The notes under the pieces were generated by a model. The model ran no database searches, was not told where the DNA came from, and saw nothing but the letters and a program-made list of their open reading frames with translations. From Candidatus Jettenia sp. (GTDB lineage: Bacteria > Planctomycetota > Brocadiia > Brocadiales > Brocadiaceae), in contig CP091278.1 of assembly GCA_021650895.1 (NCBI GenBank), forward strand, positions 2,013,659 to 2,077,658: a stretch of 64,000 nucleotides of DNA, written 5' to 3'. How positions within the stretch are numbered: the first letter of the stretch is position 1; each line of letters opens with the position of its first letter. The position numbers and the translations under genes are program-made. This document shows, one piece after another, positions 6,009-40,819 of this stretch.

Positions 6009-8285
6009 TTAATTGAGGACATCTCCGTATAACTTCTTTCCTAATGATTGTAATGCTTTTATTCCTACAATCTCTCCCTCCTGTTTATGAATGATGCATA
6101 AGGAATCAACGGGAAACAACTTTTTGAAAACATAAAGCATCTTTTCTTCATATACAATCCTGTTTACACAAATAGGACATTCAGCACCGATGATGTCTTT
6201 TTTCGGATATGGATGTACCATATTTAAAATCCCTTGCTCAATGGGAATTTTTAGTCTCTTTACAGCATCTAAAAGATCTTTTGTTTCTTCGTAGGCCATT
6301 TCGGTTGGAATAGCAATGGGAATAAAGAGAGATTTTTCCTTATCGTGGAGTAAGGTTAAAAGTTTTTTTATCTTTTTTGATAAATCTACCAAAAAAGCCG
6401 AAATTTTCGGCATACGAACATTGTTTTTATATTTTAAAAAGAGATTAAAAAAAAATTTTAACCAATCAAGCGTTAGCTCCGGCATTTCTAAAAATCGTAT
6501 GAAATGTCCTGTTGGAGCTGTATCGAGAATAAAGATGTCGAAACTCCCTTTATCCATGTAATCAATAATTGAGGTGATAGCCATGACTTCGTCAATACCA
6601 GGTGGTGTTATCTCTATAAGAGATTCCATAATCTCCTTCTCGAACACTACGTGAACAGAAGCATCTCTTTTTGTGAAAACTGCCATAAAATCTCGGATCT
6701 CTTCTGAGTAAAGATGCTTTAGTTTTTGATACTCTTCTTCTGCGTTCATTTCCTGAATGGATAGATTATTAAGAGATAAACCATCGCCTCCGATCACTAC
6801 ATCCAAACAATCTGAAAGTGAATGAGCCGGATCTGTTGAAAAAAGTAATATACGCTTTTCCGGATAAGAATTTGACAATGACAGCGCCGTCGCACATGCT
6901 AAAGTTGTCTTACCAACACCTCCTTTACCACTAAACAGCAAAAATTCCAGGCTGGATTTTAGCGCAGGCAATCGCTTCATCCCATTCGAGAATACCTTCA
7001 TCCCTCCTGGCTCATTTTTATGAAGAGGAAATTCAGGGAAATCCCCTGCCTGTTTTAGAAGCAAGGAACTCAAGCGGGTATCACCAGGAAATTCTTCTAA
7101 ACTGCCATTTTGAACACCTTGATTATTATCTTGAGCCAGGCAAAAAGCTTTATCAGCATGCATAATATTTTGTTTTCTGAGGACAAAGCATCCATCTCCA
7201 TAACAATTATTTTGCATAGGATATGTACCCTTGATCTTATATTTTGCTGTAAAAACTTCTTTTTGCAGCGAATCATTTACCTCTCCTCTGGTTATTTCTT
7301 TTAAGGGAGGTACGGGAGAATGGATCATGAGGTTGCTCCTTTCCCTGGTATCATCTTGATGGAAAGAATTCACCATCGCTTGTGCAAACTTTAGCAATGA
7401 CTCTTTTCCCTGAATTTCAGCATTGCATAAAGGCATATGTAAGAGATTATATCCATGTAGGGAAGATTTTATCTCATCGATATACTTTGCTTGTCGTGAA
7501 TATTGTGTGCCGCAGAAATAACAATCACTTACAGGATAAACGCGATTAATAATAATCGTCTTTGCCGGAACTTTATATTTCTTTAAAACAGACAAAAAAC
7601 GCTGTGTTTCTTTCATACTCAAAATCTCTGGCAACATTACTGGCACAAACTCACATGACTTATCCTGCAGCATACGCTCAATCTTTTTTGCACCCTTTAT
7701 AAATGCTTCAATAAATGCATCAGCATCATCGGGTTGATAGCGCTTTACATACAGTTTTGATAAATATCGATGCTTCTCCATCATCAAGTTGAGAACATAG
7801 GTCCACCTCTTTACGAGATAAGGCATTTGCATGAATTTCATAGTATGCCCGGTTGGCGCAGTATCAAGTATAATACTATCGTAAGTATTACTCTCTGTTA
7901 AATTCGCCAATTCTATCATTCCCATTAATTCGTCTATTCCGGGTAACGAAATGGAAAGAAGATTAGAGATGTCAGTCTCATCAAGAAAACTACCCCTATT
8001 GATTATTTTCTTAAGTGCGCTACTATGCTTTTCGATAAATTTCTGGAAAGATATCCGTGCATCTATCTCCCATACCTTAAGATTATTGAAATCGTTTGTA
8101 TTCTTCAGGCTATCCATAAGAGAGTGTGCAGGGTCAAGAGAGGCTAGCAGGATGCGTTTTTGCGGATTTTTATCTGCAAGATAGAGCGCAGTTGCTACCG
8201 CTGATGTTGTTTTACCAACACCGCCTTTACCTCCAAAACAAATTAAGGATAATGTCGTATTTGTTAGAAATAAGGGAATCTGCAC
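6009..8285 (-). CDS. double-domain ArsA/Get3-like ATPase of the gas vesicle cluster
   Basis: A 758-residue protein made of two ArsA-type halves. Each has a deviant P-loop (GGKGGVGKTT near residues 18-27; SGKGGVGKTT near 447-456), a DPAHSL switch I and a DTAPTGH switch II. Each half also has a CxxC pair late in its domain (CYFCGT about 258; CPICVN about 702). The family couples ATP hydrolysis to moving arsenite (ArsA) or tail-anchored membrane proteins (Get3). No arsenic genes are nearby and it is embedded among gvp genes, so handling of hydrophobic vesicle proteins is the more attractive idea. The start is GTG, preceded by AGAGGAT. Confidence 0.85.
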   Translation of the reverse strand: MQIPLFLTNTTLSLICFGGKGGVGKTTSAVATALYLADKNPQKRILLASLDPAHSLMDSLKNTNDFNNLKVWEIDARISFQKFIEKHSSALKKIINRGSFLDETDISNLLSISLPGIDELMGMIELANLTESNTYDSIILDTAPTGHTMKFMQMPYLVKRWTYVLNLMMEKHRYLSKLYVKRYQPDDADAFIEAFIKGAKKIERMLQDKSCEFVPVMLPEILSMKETQRFLSVLKKYKVPAKTIIINRVYPVSDCYFCGTQYSRQAKYIDEIKSSLHGYNLLHMPLCNAEIQGKESLLKFAQAMVNSFHQDDTRERSNLMIHSPVPPLKEITRGEVNDSLQKEVFTAKYKIKGTYPMQNNCYGDGCFVLRKQNIMHADKAFCLAQDNNQGVQNGSLEEFPGDTRLSSLLLKQAGDFPEFPLHKNEPGGMKVFSNGMKRLPALKSSLEFLLFSGKGGVGKTTLACATALSLSNSYPEKRILLFSTDPAHSLSDCLDVVIGGDGLSLNNLSIQEMNAEEEYQKLKHLYSEEIRDFMAVFTKRDASVHVVFEKEIMESLIEITPPGIDEVMAITSIIDYMDKGSFDIFILDTAPTGHFIRFLEMPELTLDWLKFFFNLFLKYKNNVRMPKISAFLVDLSKKIKKLLTLLHDKEKSLFIPIAIPTEMAYEETKDLLDAVKRLKIPIEQGILNMVHPYPKKDIIGAECPICVNRIVYEEKMLYVFKKLFPVDSLCIIHKQEGEIVGIKALQSLGKKLYGDVLN

Positions 8286-36488: not shown

Positions 36489-37538
36489 ATGTGGAAAGAA
36501 AAAGAAATAACAGGATTTCACGGGGGTTTTAACTTCCTCGATACCTATTTGTTAAAATTTTGCAATATTATAGAGGAAGTTTCTTCTGGCAGCACGCCGG
36601 AGACATTTAAATACAATATTCCTGACCAAGAAGTAAAATATGTTATTGTGAACCTCTGTCCTACAGAGCCGTGGGAATTACCGAACTGGGCAATCCTGGA
36701 AAACAAGACCCTGGCATTCCTTGATAAGCTGGAAGAAATAAAAGTACGTTACTTTCCAAAAGCACACTTTTCTATTGCCATCAATAAAAAAGAAGACAGA
36801 ACCATTGCGGAGGCAATGAACTATGCAAGTAACGCCGATAACGCCGAGTGGATGAAGATTTTTGCCTTAGACCCAAAATATCCGCAGAACGACCCTGTTT
36901 TGTTAGCAAAAGTTATTTTAGGTATAGATATTAATTTTGGTCAGGATACCATGGATCTGGGTATCTTAATCCTCGATGCCCAAACGGTATCGGCTATCTA
37001 CGAAAGCTGCATTCTGGGGAATAAGGTTAATTCACGACTCATAGCTATTTCTGGCACAGGTCTGAAAGAAAACGAGATTATCAATGTACAACTGGGAACA
37101 TCTGTAGACAAGGTACTCCATTACAGGACTGTTGAAGCGGGTGGCTATCGGGTTTTTATAAACGGTCCCTTGCGTGGCAAAGAAATATCTGACTTATCAC
37201 AGAAGATAGATTGGTCTACCAATAACATCGTAGTTTTAAAAGAACAGGATAGTAAGGTTATGTTTCCCATGCTCAAGTCTGGTGAATTAACATTTACTAC
37301 TAATACACACGGAGAATTACGGCAGTGTATTTATTGTAATTTTTGTGATAGTATTTGCCCTGTAGATTTAGAACCTGCCCTCTACTACCATAGTTATATC
37401 CGGGGAGAAAAGCACAAGGCACGCCTCTATAATTTAGAAAAATGTATCGAATGTGGGTTGTGCAGCTTCATATGCCCCTCAAAGCTGGAACTCTTGAGGA
37501 TTAACAGGGAATGCAAGACTCTGGGTAAAAAATTATGA
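36489..37538 (+). CDS. nqrA: NqrA-like subunit with two 4Fe-4S motifs
   Basis: A 349-residue protein. The C-terminal region aligns with NqrA (PVDLEPALYYHSY versus the PLDMEPTLLL of Vibrio) but keeps CIYCNFCDSICP (about 277-288) and CIECGLCSFICP (about 317-328), two full 4Fe-4S motifs as in RnfC. NqrA normally lacks these cysteines and is about 100 residues longer at the N-terminus. It is the first gene of a complete nqr locus and overlaps nqrB by 4 bp. It probably passes electrons to or from quinone. No clear ribosome-binding site precedes the ATG. Confidence 0.88.
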   Translation: MWKEKEITGFHGGFNFLDTYLLKFCNIIEEVSSGSTPETFKYNIPDQEVKYVIVNLCPTEPWELPNWAILENKTLAFLDKLEEIKVRYFPKAHFSIAINKKEDRTIAEAMNYASNADNAEWMKIFALDPKYPQNDPVLLAKVILGIDINFGQDTMDLGILILDAQTVSAIYESCILGNKVNSRLIAISGTGLKENEIINVQLGTSVDKVLHYRTVEAGGYRVFINGPLRGKEISDLSQKIDWSTNNIVVLKEQDSKVMFPMLKSGELTFTTNTHGELRQCIYCNFCDSICPVDLEPALYYHSYIRGEKHKARLYNLEKCIECGLCSFICPSKLELLRINRECKTLGKKL

Positions 37539-38638
37539 GAAAATCGCTTAAACCAATAGAAGATATTCTGAGTAAGAATCTTGACCGTGCAGAATCATTT
37601 ATCCATACCCATCCAAAAATCAACTTCCTGTTTGGGAGTCTTTTTGAAGCCTTTGATAGTCTTATTCGTAGTACAAGAGAAACGGCACAAATACAACCCT
37701 TTATCCGAAATAATTATGATGTAAAACGATTTATGGGGGCTGTACTCGTGGCATTAACTTTCGGATGGGTTTTCCCATCCATTTATTTTTATGGCTGGCA
37801 GTGTGTAATACCCAAGCTTATGGTTTCATTTATTGTAGGTGTATTCATCGTTGATGTAAGTTGGGCTATTATTGCACGGGAAGGTCATATCAGCGAAGGC
37901 GGATTCGTATCATGCATGTTCATCCCTGCCATATTGCCTCCACAATCACCGCTTTGGCTAACCGGTTTAGGCGCAGCATTGGCTATTCTCTTCAGGAATA
38001 TACTGGGTGGTGTCGGTAATAATCTTGTAAACCCCGCCCTTTTCAGCCGTTTGTTTTTGACAATATGCTTTCCAGCGCTTCTAGTCACCGGTTATCAAAT
38101 ACCCTTTGTAGGTATCCCGGATCTCCATACTCTCCGCTATGGATTAGATACTATTACCCATGCTACACCATTAACGGCATTCAAGGTTAACGGGGAACTA
38201 CCTTCTTACCTTTCTTTACTTCTGGGAACTGCAAGTGGTTCTTTGGGTGAAACGTGTCGATTGGCACTGATATTATCGGCTTTATGGTTAATCAAAATAA
38301 AGGTTGCGAATTGGAGAATACCCGTATCCTATCTTGGAAGCGTGTTTATCTTTTCCCTGTTTTTTTCATTGATTTTAGGCAAAGCTGTAGCCCCACCCTT
38401 GTTTCAACTTCTCAGTGGCGGTTTAATTCTGGGGGCATTTTTTATGGCTACAGATCCGATAACAGCAACGTACAACCAAACAGCAAAATGGGTCTTTGGC
38501 ACAGGGTGTGGATTTATCACGGTACTGATAAGAGATTTTACCACATTACCTGAAGGGGTTATGTATGCAATCCTGCTTATGAATCTCCTGGCGATACCAA
38601 TCCAGTCTTTAGCAGTAAAGATGAGATATCGCATATGA
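37535..38638 (+). CDS. nqrB: Na+-NQR subunit B
   Basis: A 367-residue integral membrane protein of about nine to ten helices. It has the family segments FPSIYFYGWQ, EGGFVSCMFIPAILPPQSP, NILGGVGNNLVNPALFSRLF, GSLGETCRLALIL (the region of the covalently bound FMN threonine in NqrB/RnfD) and FFMATDPITATYNQTAKWVF. NqrB forms the main sodium and quinone path of the pump. The start overlaps nqrA by ATGA. Confidence 0.94.
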   Translation: MRKSLKPIEDILSKNLDRAESFIHTHPKINFLFGSLFEAFDSLIRSTRETAQIQPFIRNNYDVKRFMGAVLVALTFGWVFPSIYFYGWQCVIPKLMVSFIVGVFIVDVSWAIIAREGHISEGGFVSCMFIPAILPPQSPLWLTGLGAALAILFRNILGGVGNNLVNPALFSRLFLTICFPALLVTGYQIPFVGIPDLHTLRYGLDTITHATPLTAFKVNGELPSYLSLLLGTASGSLGETCRLALILSALWLIKIKVANWRIPVSYLGSVFIFSLFFSLILGKAVAPPLFQLLSGGLILGAFFMATDPITATYNQTAKWVFGTGCGFITVLIRDFTTLPEGVMYAILLMNLLAIPIQSLAVKMRYRI

Positions 38639-38687: not shown

Positions 38688-39410
38688 ATGGACGAATTAA
38701 AAAAAATTATATCTCGTATTATTTCAATTCTCCTGATTACTTTTTTACCCTGCGCAGGGCTTCTTGTAGTATACTTCTTCACAGCTCCAAGAATCGCTGA
38801 ATACTACGATATAAAGGAAAAACGCGCTGTTTTGGACATTTTTCGTATTCCCTATCGTACGGTAGAAAAGAAATTTATGGGATTTCATTTTACAGTGTAT
38901 GATAAAAAGGATATTCAAGAAGTTTTTCGTAAAAATATAACCGTAGAAACACCTTCCTTATCCTGGGAAATTCAACCCACAGGTCGAGAGTCTTCTGAAG
39001 AAAGACAAAAGGATACGAGTGGAAAAAGGATATTCAAATACGTGAAAGAAGGAAGTCTTCAAGGTGTTGGATTTGTGGAATCAAAAATGGGATATGGTTA
39101 CAATAAATCAAGCACTATGTCTCTCTTTATTTGTCTGGAACCTGATGGGGAAACCTTAAAGGGTATAGAAGTATTAGACCATAGTGAAACACCAGGTTTA
39201 GGCGGTAGAATTACTGAAGATCAATTTAAAAAACAATTTATCGGAAAAAAGTTAAAGCCGAAGATAATAATGGTCAAGGAAAGAAAAGCTGAAGGCGCAA
39301 ATGAATTTGATGCAATTACCGGTGCTACCAACACCAGCAAAGGAATAGCAGCCTTTATCAACGATGCTGTAAAAGAATTTTGGGAAGGGCAAAGGGAGAT
39401 AACATGGTAG
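38688..39410 (+). CDS. nqrC: Na+-NQR subunit C, FMN-binding
   Basis: A 240-residue protein. One N-terminal membrane helix (about 10-32) is followed by a periplasm-side FMN domain. DAITGATNTSKGIAAF (about 207-222) is the S/T-G-A-T-x-T flavinylation motif whose final threonine carries FMN by a phosphoester bond. The ETPGLGGRI motif is also present. An ApbE flavin transferase would be needed and is not in the window. Confidence 0.94.
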   Translation: MDELKKIISRIISILLITFLPCAGLLVVYFFTAPRIAEYYDIKEKRAVLDIFRIPYRTVEKKFMGFHFTVYDKKDIQEVFRKNITVETPSLSWEIQPTGRESSEERQKDTSGKRIFKYVKEGSLQGVGFVESKMGYGYNKSSTMSLFICLEPDGETLKGIEVLDHSETPGLGGRITEDQFKKQFIGKKLKPKIIMVKERKAEGANEFDAITGATNTSKGIAAFINDAVKEFWEGQREITW

Positions 39411-40819
39411 GGTTAAAGCGAAATATACGAAAAACCTCTAAATTCCTCATGAGGGATAATCTGATCCTGACTGCTGGCGCTGGACTTGGATTTTGCTCTT
39501 CATTGGCTGTAACAAACAAACTTGAAAATTCTCTAACCATGGGACTCGGAGTAACATTTGTAACCGCCGGGAGTTTTTGTCTGGTCTATCCCTTTAAAAG
39601 GCTTATATCAACCGCAGGTACACACCATAAGATTTCTCTCTTGATGATTATCGTATCTGTCTTTGTAGCTATATTCGGATTTTTTGCACAATCATTTGTC
39701 CCTGAGATAGCAGCAAATATAAAAGCATACATTGACCTAATTACCACAAATTGTATAGTGCTGGCTGTAATCTCTGAGGGGTTAACCGTAAACTTTTGGG
39801 AAGCGCAAAGGAAGATATTTAAAGCGTGCTTAGGATATTCCCTTGCCTTAGTTCTGCTTGCATTTTTAAGAGAACCTCTGGGTTTTGGGACCGTTATGGG
39901 TTTCTCCGTGCTTCCAGATACCTTTCCACGGGTCATCCTTATGATTACCCCTGTGGGTGGATTCTTTGCACTGGCAGGATTTAGGCTTTTATTGCGTCCG
40001 ATTCTTATTAAGGCAGGAATTGTATATCCGGAAGCTCCTAGTTCCGGCCTAGTAACAGCAACAGACGGTGGAGAACCTGTACCGGTTACTCAACCAAAGC
40101 GAAGAGTATCTAAAACATCTTTCATTGCTATAGGATTAGGGGTTTGTCTGTTTCTTAGCATTATAATACATATAAAAACAATACCTGGTCTTCATCAGCA
40201 ATTCAGCATTCTCTTCCCTGTCCTTCTGAGCGCCCTTTTCTTTGATGGAATTGTATTAAGCAAACTTCTAGGAATATGTCCCTTACTAAATAAATCACGC
40301 CAAATTGACGCAGCGTGGAAGATGGGTGTGGCGGTAATTATTGTAACAACATTATCCACTGCATTAAACTGGTTGGTATATCACCATATCTTGGTTAAGT
40401 GTAGTGACTTCTTATCCCGATATTCGCCTTTGCCATTACGATTAGAAAACATCTTTTATCTAACGGTTTTTATTGTTACTATCGCTGTATTTGTACAAGT
40501 CTTAAGTGTATTATTAAGAAAATTTGCAAAAAATGTATATGAGCAAATGGGACAGTTTCTGGAGCTTATTACCGTTAACTGTATTGTCCTTGCCAGCGCC
40601 ACATTTACCATTCCTACAGGAGCAAAGTTTCTTGTTACAACAGTGACAGCGCTTGGATATGGTCTTCACTGGATGATGGTAGTTATATGGCTTGCCCTGT
40701 TAAGGCGTCAACGTCTGGTTGTTCCTACTACGGTATGGGATGAAGATACTATTGCTATTCTGCTCTTGGGTATCATGGCGGCTATATTTACCGGTATTGG
40801 AATGATACAAATTTTTTAA
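39404..40819 (+). CDS. nqrDE: fused Na+-NQR subunits D and E
   Basis: A 471-residue membrane protein that is two related subunits in one chain. The first half matches NqrD (GFCSSLAVTNKLENSLTMGL; TTNCIVLAVISEG; REPLGFGTVMG). The second, from about 255, matches NqrE (LSALFFDGIVLSKLLGICPL; TVNCIVLASATFTI; LALLRRQRL). All four cysteine positions of the inter-subunit iron-sulfur site are visible. A soluble linker of about 35 residues (PEAPSSGLVTATDGGEPVPV) joins them. The ATG at 39404 follows AGGGAG and overlaps the nqrC stop. Confidence 0.92.
   Translation: MVGLKRNIRKTSKFLMRDNLILTAGAGLGFCSSLAVTNKLENSLTMGLGVTFVTAGSFCLVYPFKRLISTAGTHHKISLLMIIVSVFVAIFGFFAQSFVPEIAANIKAYIDLITTNCIVLAVISEGLTVNFWEAQRKIFKACLGYSLALVLLAFLREPLGFGTVMGFSVLPDTFPRVILMITPVGGFFALAGFRLLLRPILIKAGIVYPEAPSSGLVTATDGGEPVPVTQPKRRVSKTSFIAIGLGVCLFLSIIIHIKTIPGLHQQFSILFPVLLSALFFDGIVLSKLLGICPLLNKSRQIDAAWKMGVAVIIVTTLSTALNWLVYHHILVKCSDFLSRYSPLPLRLENIFYLTVFIVTIAVFVQVLSVLLRKFAKNVYEQMGQFLELITVNCIVLASATFTIPTGAKFLVTTVTALGYGLHWMMVVIWLALLRRQRLVVPTTVWDEDTIAILLLGIMAAIFTGIGMIQIF

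Follow-up and report, generated by a model that had tools for sequence, protein, structure and literature searches.

The Na+-translocating NADH:quinone oxidoreductase (NQR) serves many bacteria as a main respiratory pump. How it arose from the RNF complex has so far been described by a model, in which RnfB was lost, NqrF was gained and the cofactors of RnfC decayed as that subunit became NqrA (Reyes-Prieto et al., 2014, PMC4014512). The same work placed the origin of NQR in an ancestor of Chlorobi and Bacteroidetes and judged the A/C (NqrA/RnfC) subunits too diverged for trees. In RNF, electrons travel from the riboflavin of RnfD to the two clusters of RnfC, then to flavin mononucleotide (FMN) and nicotinamide adenine dinucleotide (NAD), with 11.7 Å between the riboflavin and an RnfC cluster (PMC9588780); in NQR, quinone at the NqrB rim is the terminus of the path (PMC10643135). 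Reviews and structure papers give NqrA no cofactor (PMC4014512, PMC12174285, PMC9588780) and canonical NqrA no assigned direct function (PMC12174285). Here we describe an nqrA gene encoding two complete iron-sulfur (Fe-S) cluster motifs at positions 36489-37538 of a 64,000-nucleotide stretch (hereafter the window) from the anammox bacterium Candidatus Jettenia sp. (contig CP091278.1). Judging from operon make-up, intact motifs, a lost RnfC FMN/NAD signature, conserved carrier sites in subunits B-F and tree position, we consider it quite probable that the gene encodes the NqrA of a stem-lineage NQR complex derived from an RNF-like ancestor, with NqrF already replacing RnfB and two [4Fe-4S] clusters not yet lost.

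A Short NqrA With Two 4Fe-4S Motifs

The gene and its landmarks are as follows:
36489..37538, + strand, short Fe-S-bearing nqrA (349 amino acids), an RnfC/NqrA homologue that lacks the barrel domain and FMN loop through an internal deletion
36516..36527, + strand, N-terminal F-x-G-G arm (FHGG), common to RnfC and full-length Fe-S NqrA by alignment
37326..37361, + strand, first 4Fe-4S motif, CxxCxxCxxxCP, CIYCNFCDSICP, in the C-terminal part
37443..37478, + strand, second 4Fe-4S motif, CxxCxxCxxxCP, CIECGLCSFICP, in the C-terminal part

The open reading frame runs uninterrupted from ATG to stop and has four bases in common with the next gene. Both motifs, which the first-pass annotation of the window had pointed out, were found intact in every relative examined. 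In alignments, the motif 1 cysteines are present in 20/20 short forms and 8/8 full-length Fe-S forms and are lost in 23 canonical NqrA; all four cysteines of motif 2 are likewise present in 20/20 and 8/8, and canonical NqrA retains, in part, the last two alone. A pattern search, in which some sequences were counted twice, recovered the eight cysteines in 32/32 short forms. The reading frame scores above the cut-offs of Pfam 4Fe-4S dicluster models, and few parts of the short protein are better conserved than the cluster domain. Because the cysteines are kept in every short form checked and the ratio of nonsynonymous to synonymous substitution rates (dN/dS) against close relatives is 0.11-0.20, the motifs are not a product of chance, and short NqrA is predicted from them to bind two [4Fe-4S] clusters.

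Family models place the protein less simply. It scored 130 bits against the rnfC model (cut-off 246) and 58-73 bits against nqrA models, all below cut-offs, including 58.5 bits against an nqrA model whose cut-off is 321; it also matched the Nuo51 FMN-binding domain model (38 bits). The two 4Fe-4S motifs are shared with RnfC and are at odds with a canonical NqrA, which has lost its cluster cysteines and carries no redox cofactor. The FMN/NAD signature of RnfC is lacking: the Gly-rich loop is degenerate and NGAECEP has become NLCPTEP. The earlier statement that the rest of the protein aligns with NqrA calls for qualification: profile scores favor rnfC, and the assignment to NqrA derives from trees and from particular features (below).

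The short form was first described as missing its N-terminal ~100 residues. About 100 residues are indeed gone, but by an internal deletion that left the Gly-Gly arm in place and not by plain truncation: by alignment, the distance from the arm to the NGAECEP column is 42-43 residues in the short form versus 141-161 in nearly all RnfC/NqrA, and the two glycines of the arm are kept in 16/20 and 20/20 short forms. With this segment went the barrel/ubiquitin-like domain as well as the Gly-rich FMN loop. The lost domain is not encoded upstream, where the three forward frames hold an acetyltransferase gene alone, and the sole RnfC_N match over cut-off in the host genome is the true RnfC.

Counting strong matches, with operons also read, the short form occurs in 21/24 genomes of the host family and 7/7 of a second family of the same order, and was found in 0/4 of a third family. 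Candidatus Jettenia ecosi carries the short nqrA at 94% identity, and the host is a Jettenia-like anammox bacterium. The first-pass annotation had suggested looking for the same short form in relatives, and its conservation across two families, together with the intact motifs and the dN/dS values, rules out an assembly error or pseudogene.

The nqr Operon and Its Genomic Setting

The short nqrA is the first gene of an operon in the order nqrA-B-C-[D-E fused]-F, in which nqrB and nqrC are also rnfD-like and rnfG-like, respectively:
37535..38638, + strand, nqrB (367 amino acids), bearing an N-terminal extension of NQR type and the threonine motif for covalent FMN
38688..39410, + strand, nqrC (240 amino acids), with FMN_bind domain and TGAT flavinylation motif
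39380..40819, + strand, fused nqrD-nqrE (about 471-479 amino acids, start uncertain), the four [2Fe-2S] cysteines all present and the two halves separated by an additional hydrophobic segment
40922..42550, + strand, nqrF (542 amino acids), with transmembrane anchor, 2Fe-2S and flavin adenine dinucleotide (FAD)/NAD domains, lineage-specific insert and C-terminal extension

The first-pass annotation had read nqrF rather than rnfB at this locus, and this was borne out, with no rnfB or other polyferredoxin gene found near the short-form locus. For the window NqrF the best model was nqrF (150 bits, below the cut-off of 295), and the 2Fe-2S and NAD domains and an N-terminal transmembrane segment were recognized. 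The NqrB N-terminal extension, which binds NqrA (PMC9325719), is present in the window NqrB and in the Fe-S relatives and absent in RnfD.

Every short-form operon read from end to end has the D-E fusion; none of the full-length Fe-S operons does. One half of the fusion scores higher with the rnfA model than with nqrE. The added hydrophobic segment between the halves (window 39380-40819) is SFIAIGLGVCLFLSIIIHI; if D and E have opposite topologies here, as in known NQR, the fusion would call for a linker helix of this kind. In Vibrio cholerae NQR, the docking patch for NqrF consists of charged NqrA residues between 40 and 85 (PMC9325719). Anammox NqrF has 542-563 amino acids compared with 360-432 in most relatives, and the larger NqrF may replace the docking contact of the lost NqrA barrel domain. 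A promoter scan of the operon gave sites no more numerous than in shuffled sequences. ApbE is encoded in the host genome.

The host genome carries its own rnfC, D, G, E and A genes apart from the nqr operon. In the assembly, rnfE reads in two frames (L112/L115, G000:C1:813305-814546), a frameshift or sequencing error, and rnfE-rnfA lie distant from rnfC-rnfD-rnfG at C1:840 kb. No RnfB-type gene was found adjoining either group.

Full-Length Fe-S-Bearing NqrA in Other Planctomycetes

Full-length NqrA homologues with both cluster motifs were recovered from planctomycete genomes outside the short-form families. Five of them (loci L078, L079, L082, L163 and L164, with L163 and the window genome belonging to one order) lie in complete A-B-C-D-E-F operons with NqrF and unfused D and E, and no polyferredoxin gene was found near these five. 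By alignment, the loop before the clusters spans 65-67 residues in full-length Fe-S NqrA, 66-73 in NqrA, 30-36 in RnfC and 49 in the short form; this NqrA-specific membrane loop intertwines with the NqrB N-terminus (PMC9325719). The FMN signatures GLGGAGFPTH, NGAECEPY and N-V-G/A-T, invariant or nearly so in 22 RnfC, are lost or degenerate in aligned Fe-S NqrA, with the Gly-rich loop partly surviving in some. The motif context is CGLCS in Fe-S NqrA and mostly CGCC or CGSC in RnfC.

Scores on the rnfC and nqrA models (bits, rnfC/nqrA) shift from rnfC to nqrA in the same order as the trees below: 501/36 for the host's own RnfC, 242/128 for L163, 258/128 for L078, 148/93 for L082, 127/116 for L164, 103/123 for L079 and 49/597 for canonical NqrA, which leaves the full-length Fe-S forms at 93-128 bits on the nqrA model. 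The L078 protein (6583-8061) exceeds the rnfC cut-off (258 versus 246 bits), so automatic annotation would name it RnfC. Two partial loci were also encountered. L081 (1631-2905, genome G026) is a lone Fe-S nqrA whose N-terminus is separately shortened; it has no other nqr gene as a neighbor and was left out of the operon count. Plasmid pILYOP01 of Ilyobacter polytropus carries an nqrB-C-D-E-F set (L132, 4144-7996), with no nqrA found upstream, that falls near the full-length Fe-S operons in the concatenated tree described next.

Phylogenetic Placement

In the NqrA/RnfC tree, a branch with full support (100/100) separated each of RnfC, canonical NqrA and the short form from the rest; on the path between them lay the full-length Fe-S forms, with joins along it at 84-91. 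The short form fell outside the RnfC clade, and the grouping with the RnfC of a degraded rnf operon that the first-pass annotation had raised was not seen. A concatenated tree of B, D and E gave the order RNF (separate, 100/100); the short form and L163; L078 and L082 (100/99); L079+L164 (100/98); and canonical NQR (100/100), the last drawn from Planctomycetota, Bacteroidota and Pseudomonadota. Omitting the long-branched short form left this order unchanged. Forcing all Fe-S operons into one clade was rejected by the approximately unbiased test (p-AU 0.007, a value that serves as a guide, since the group was defined with the first tree already known). As paralogues, D and E were used to root each other's trees; the NQR-like set including the Fe-S forms was monophyletic in both (D 99/99, E 97/99), RNF was basal, and in the D half the NQR-like set was nested within RNF.

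All complete Fe-S-bearing operons have NqrF, no nearby RnfB and an RnfC FMN/NAD signature lost to varying degree. With NqrF present and the flavin signature decayed in these operons, replacement of RnfB by NqrF and decay of the flavin site preceded loss of the clusters. In anammox bacteria and a number of other planctomycetes, the Fe-S operons appear to preserve stages through which NQR arose. The earlier description of the gene as an evolutionary intermediate gains strength from the full-length relatives, which form a grade from RNF to NQR. The short anammox form is a derived side branch of this grade and not itself the intermediate; on that branch the NqrA barrel domain would later have been lost, D and E fused and extra sequence added to NqrF.

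Several points weigh against the stem-lineage placement. The branch leading to the membrane subunits of the short form is very long, at 2.1-2.9 changes per site, which makes their exact tree position less certain than the positions of the full-length forms. NqrF was likely recruited once, but its monophyly relative to monooxygenase reductases was weakly supported (74/90). Sampling of Fe-S NqrA covered Planctomycetota, with other phyla included solely as plasmid-collection references. The structure predicted for the short form with ten relatives as input had a local confidence score (pLDDT) of 43.8, too poor for fold comparison, and cluster occupancy, acceptor and activity of the complex are predictions from sequence.

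Proposed Electron Path and Ion Coupling

The operon keeps the FAD/NADH and 2Fe-2S sites of NqrF, the covalent FMN sites of NqrB and NqrC, the D/E [2Fe-2S] cysteines and the riboflavin aspartate of NqrB (NqrB-D346 equivalent). In the path we propose, NADH would be oxidized at NqrF (FAD, 2Fe-2S) and electrons would pass through the D/E [2Fe-2S] center to FMN-C, FMN-B and riboflavin-B, and from there either to menaquinone or to the two NqrA clusters, which could give to, or take from, a cytoplasmic carrier such as ferredoxin. Since the FMN/NAD pocket is gone, the cluster partner would be one other than NAD(H). That the clusters form such a cytoplasmic port to a non-NAD carrier is, in our estimate, just short of an even proposition. 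The extra electron entry suggested by the first-pass annotation is possible, and the position of the clusters corresponds to the exit side in RNF.

A reading compatible with the stem-lineage placement, and one to which we give somewhat less than an even chance, is that the anammox complex no longer pumps Na+ and instead is an H+ pump or is uncoupled for reverse or bypass electron transfer. Three transmembrane acids mostly conserved in RNF and NQR are lost in the long-branched anammox operon: the NqrE-E95 equivalent is S/G/T in 14/14 short forms, the NqrD-D88 position is G/N/A/S in 14/14, and Q occupies the NqrB-D397 position in 13/13 readable sequences. All five full-length Fe-S operons retain E95 and D397, two acids linked with the pumping of Na+. 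Mutation of E95 abolishes Na+ pumping in Vibrio (PMC10643135), so these replacements make ion coupling uncertain in the anammox form. However, other acids are kept (the NqrD-D133 position as D/E, and NqrB-D346), the diverged D half aligns uncertainly around the GRAE motif, and residue correspondence was drawn by alignment to Enterobacter NQR, not Vibrio itself. Quinone-site residues, read by eye from the alignment, also differ in the anammox form.

Rather unlikely, in our view, is that the NqrA clusters are structural or a dead-end electron store; NqrA would then be a scaffold, as it is in canonical NQR, and the sole output would be the reduction of quinone at NqrB. Loss or degeneracy of the FMN/NAD signature in all Fe-S NqrA would agree with this, leaving the RNF output path with no known end station, as would the lack of a cofactor or of an assigned direct function in canonical NqrA (PMC12174285). 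Yet every member examined has retained all eight cysteines across long branches on which the remainder of the protein diverged, and the conservation of the cluster domain in the short form argues the same way.

Alternative Origins of the Locus

We regard it as very improbable that the locus is a degraded or altered RNF operon, in which a true RnfC has lost its N-terminus and an unrelated NqrF-like reductase lies nearby. The profile scores of the A subunit (rnfC 130 bits, nqrA 58) and of the rnfA-like half of the fusion would fit. The trees exclude it for A, for B+D+E and for paralogue-rooted D and E; moreover, NqrB has an NQR-type extension absent from RnfD, the host encodes rnfC, D, G, E and A apart from this operon, and the nqr operon is conserved over two families. 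Secondary regain of the clusters, by acquisition of a ferredoxin domain or recombination with RnfC, is in our view just as improbable: it has the co-occurrence of RnfC and Fe-S NqrA in the same genomes in its favor, but hardly agrees with the NqrA-specific loop directly before the clusters in full-length forms, the differing motif context (CGLCS against mostly CGCC/CGSC) or a grade that would require several independent regains.

Comparison With Known Systems

Among the papers listed by full-text searches of the open-access literature on NqrA, RnfC and anammox, with subscription papers (including the anammox complexome study) outside their coverage, we saw no report of an Fe-S-bearing NqrA; the Nqr/Rnf passages of PMC6828613 do not mention clusters in NqrA, and no RNF-to-NQR intermediates were found in the searchable part of the literature. 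As living steps, the Fe-S operons make the RNF-to-NQR model biochemically testable. The supply of NADH and ferredoxin in anammox bacteria is unsettled, and a complex annotated simply as Na+-NQR may do something else there. We tentatively put forward, as a combined view that is less likely than not, a pump of the NQR type in which an additional 4Fe-4S port on the cytoplasmic side links a ferredoxin-like carrier with NADH and quinone at a single membrane complex, with paraphyletic living intermediates that fix the order of events in the origin of NQR and a stem in Planctomycetota.

The intermediate predicted by Reyes-Prieto et al. (2014) corresponds to the Fe-S operons at one stage, and the sequence of events agrees; in the accessible parts of that paper no description of an Fe-S-bearing NqrA was seen, and its Chlorobi/Bacteroidetes origin is not obviously matched by the stem grade found here in Planctomycetota. 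With NuoF/Nqo1 of complex I, the locus shares a match to the 51 kDa domain model, as expected for RnfC/NqrA relatives, but the FMN loop is deleted in short NqrA and the complex is a different one. The locus and its relatives share with canonical Na+-NQR of V. cholerae the order A-F, input through NqrF, the NqrB N-terminal extension, the covalent FMN sites, the D/E [2Fe-2S] cysteines and, in full-length Fe-S relatives, the NqrA membrane loop. They differ from it in the two 4Fe-4S motifs retained by NqrA and, in the anammox form, in the missing barrel domain, the D-E fusion, the larger NqrF and the altered transmembrane acids. With RNF (RnfCDGEAB) they share homologous sequence, two CxxCxxCxxxCP motifs at the same place as in RnfC and the order of five shared subunits, whereas they lack RnfB, have lost the FMN/NAD signature, contain NqrF and branch on the NQR side in trees.
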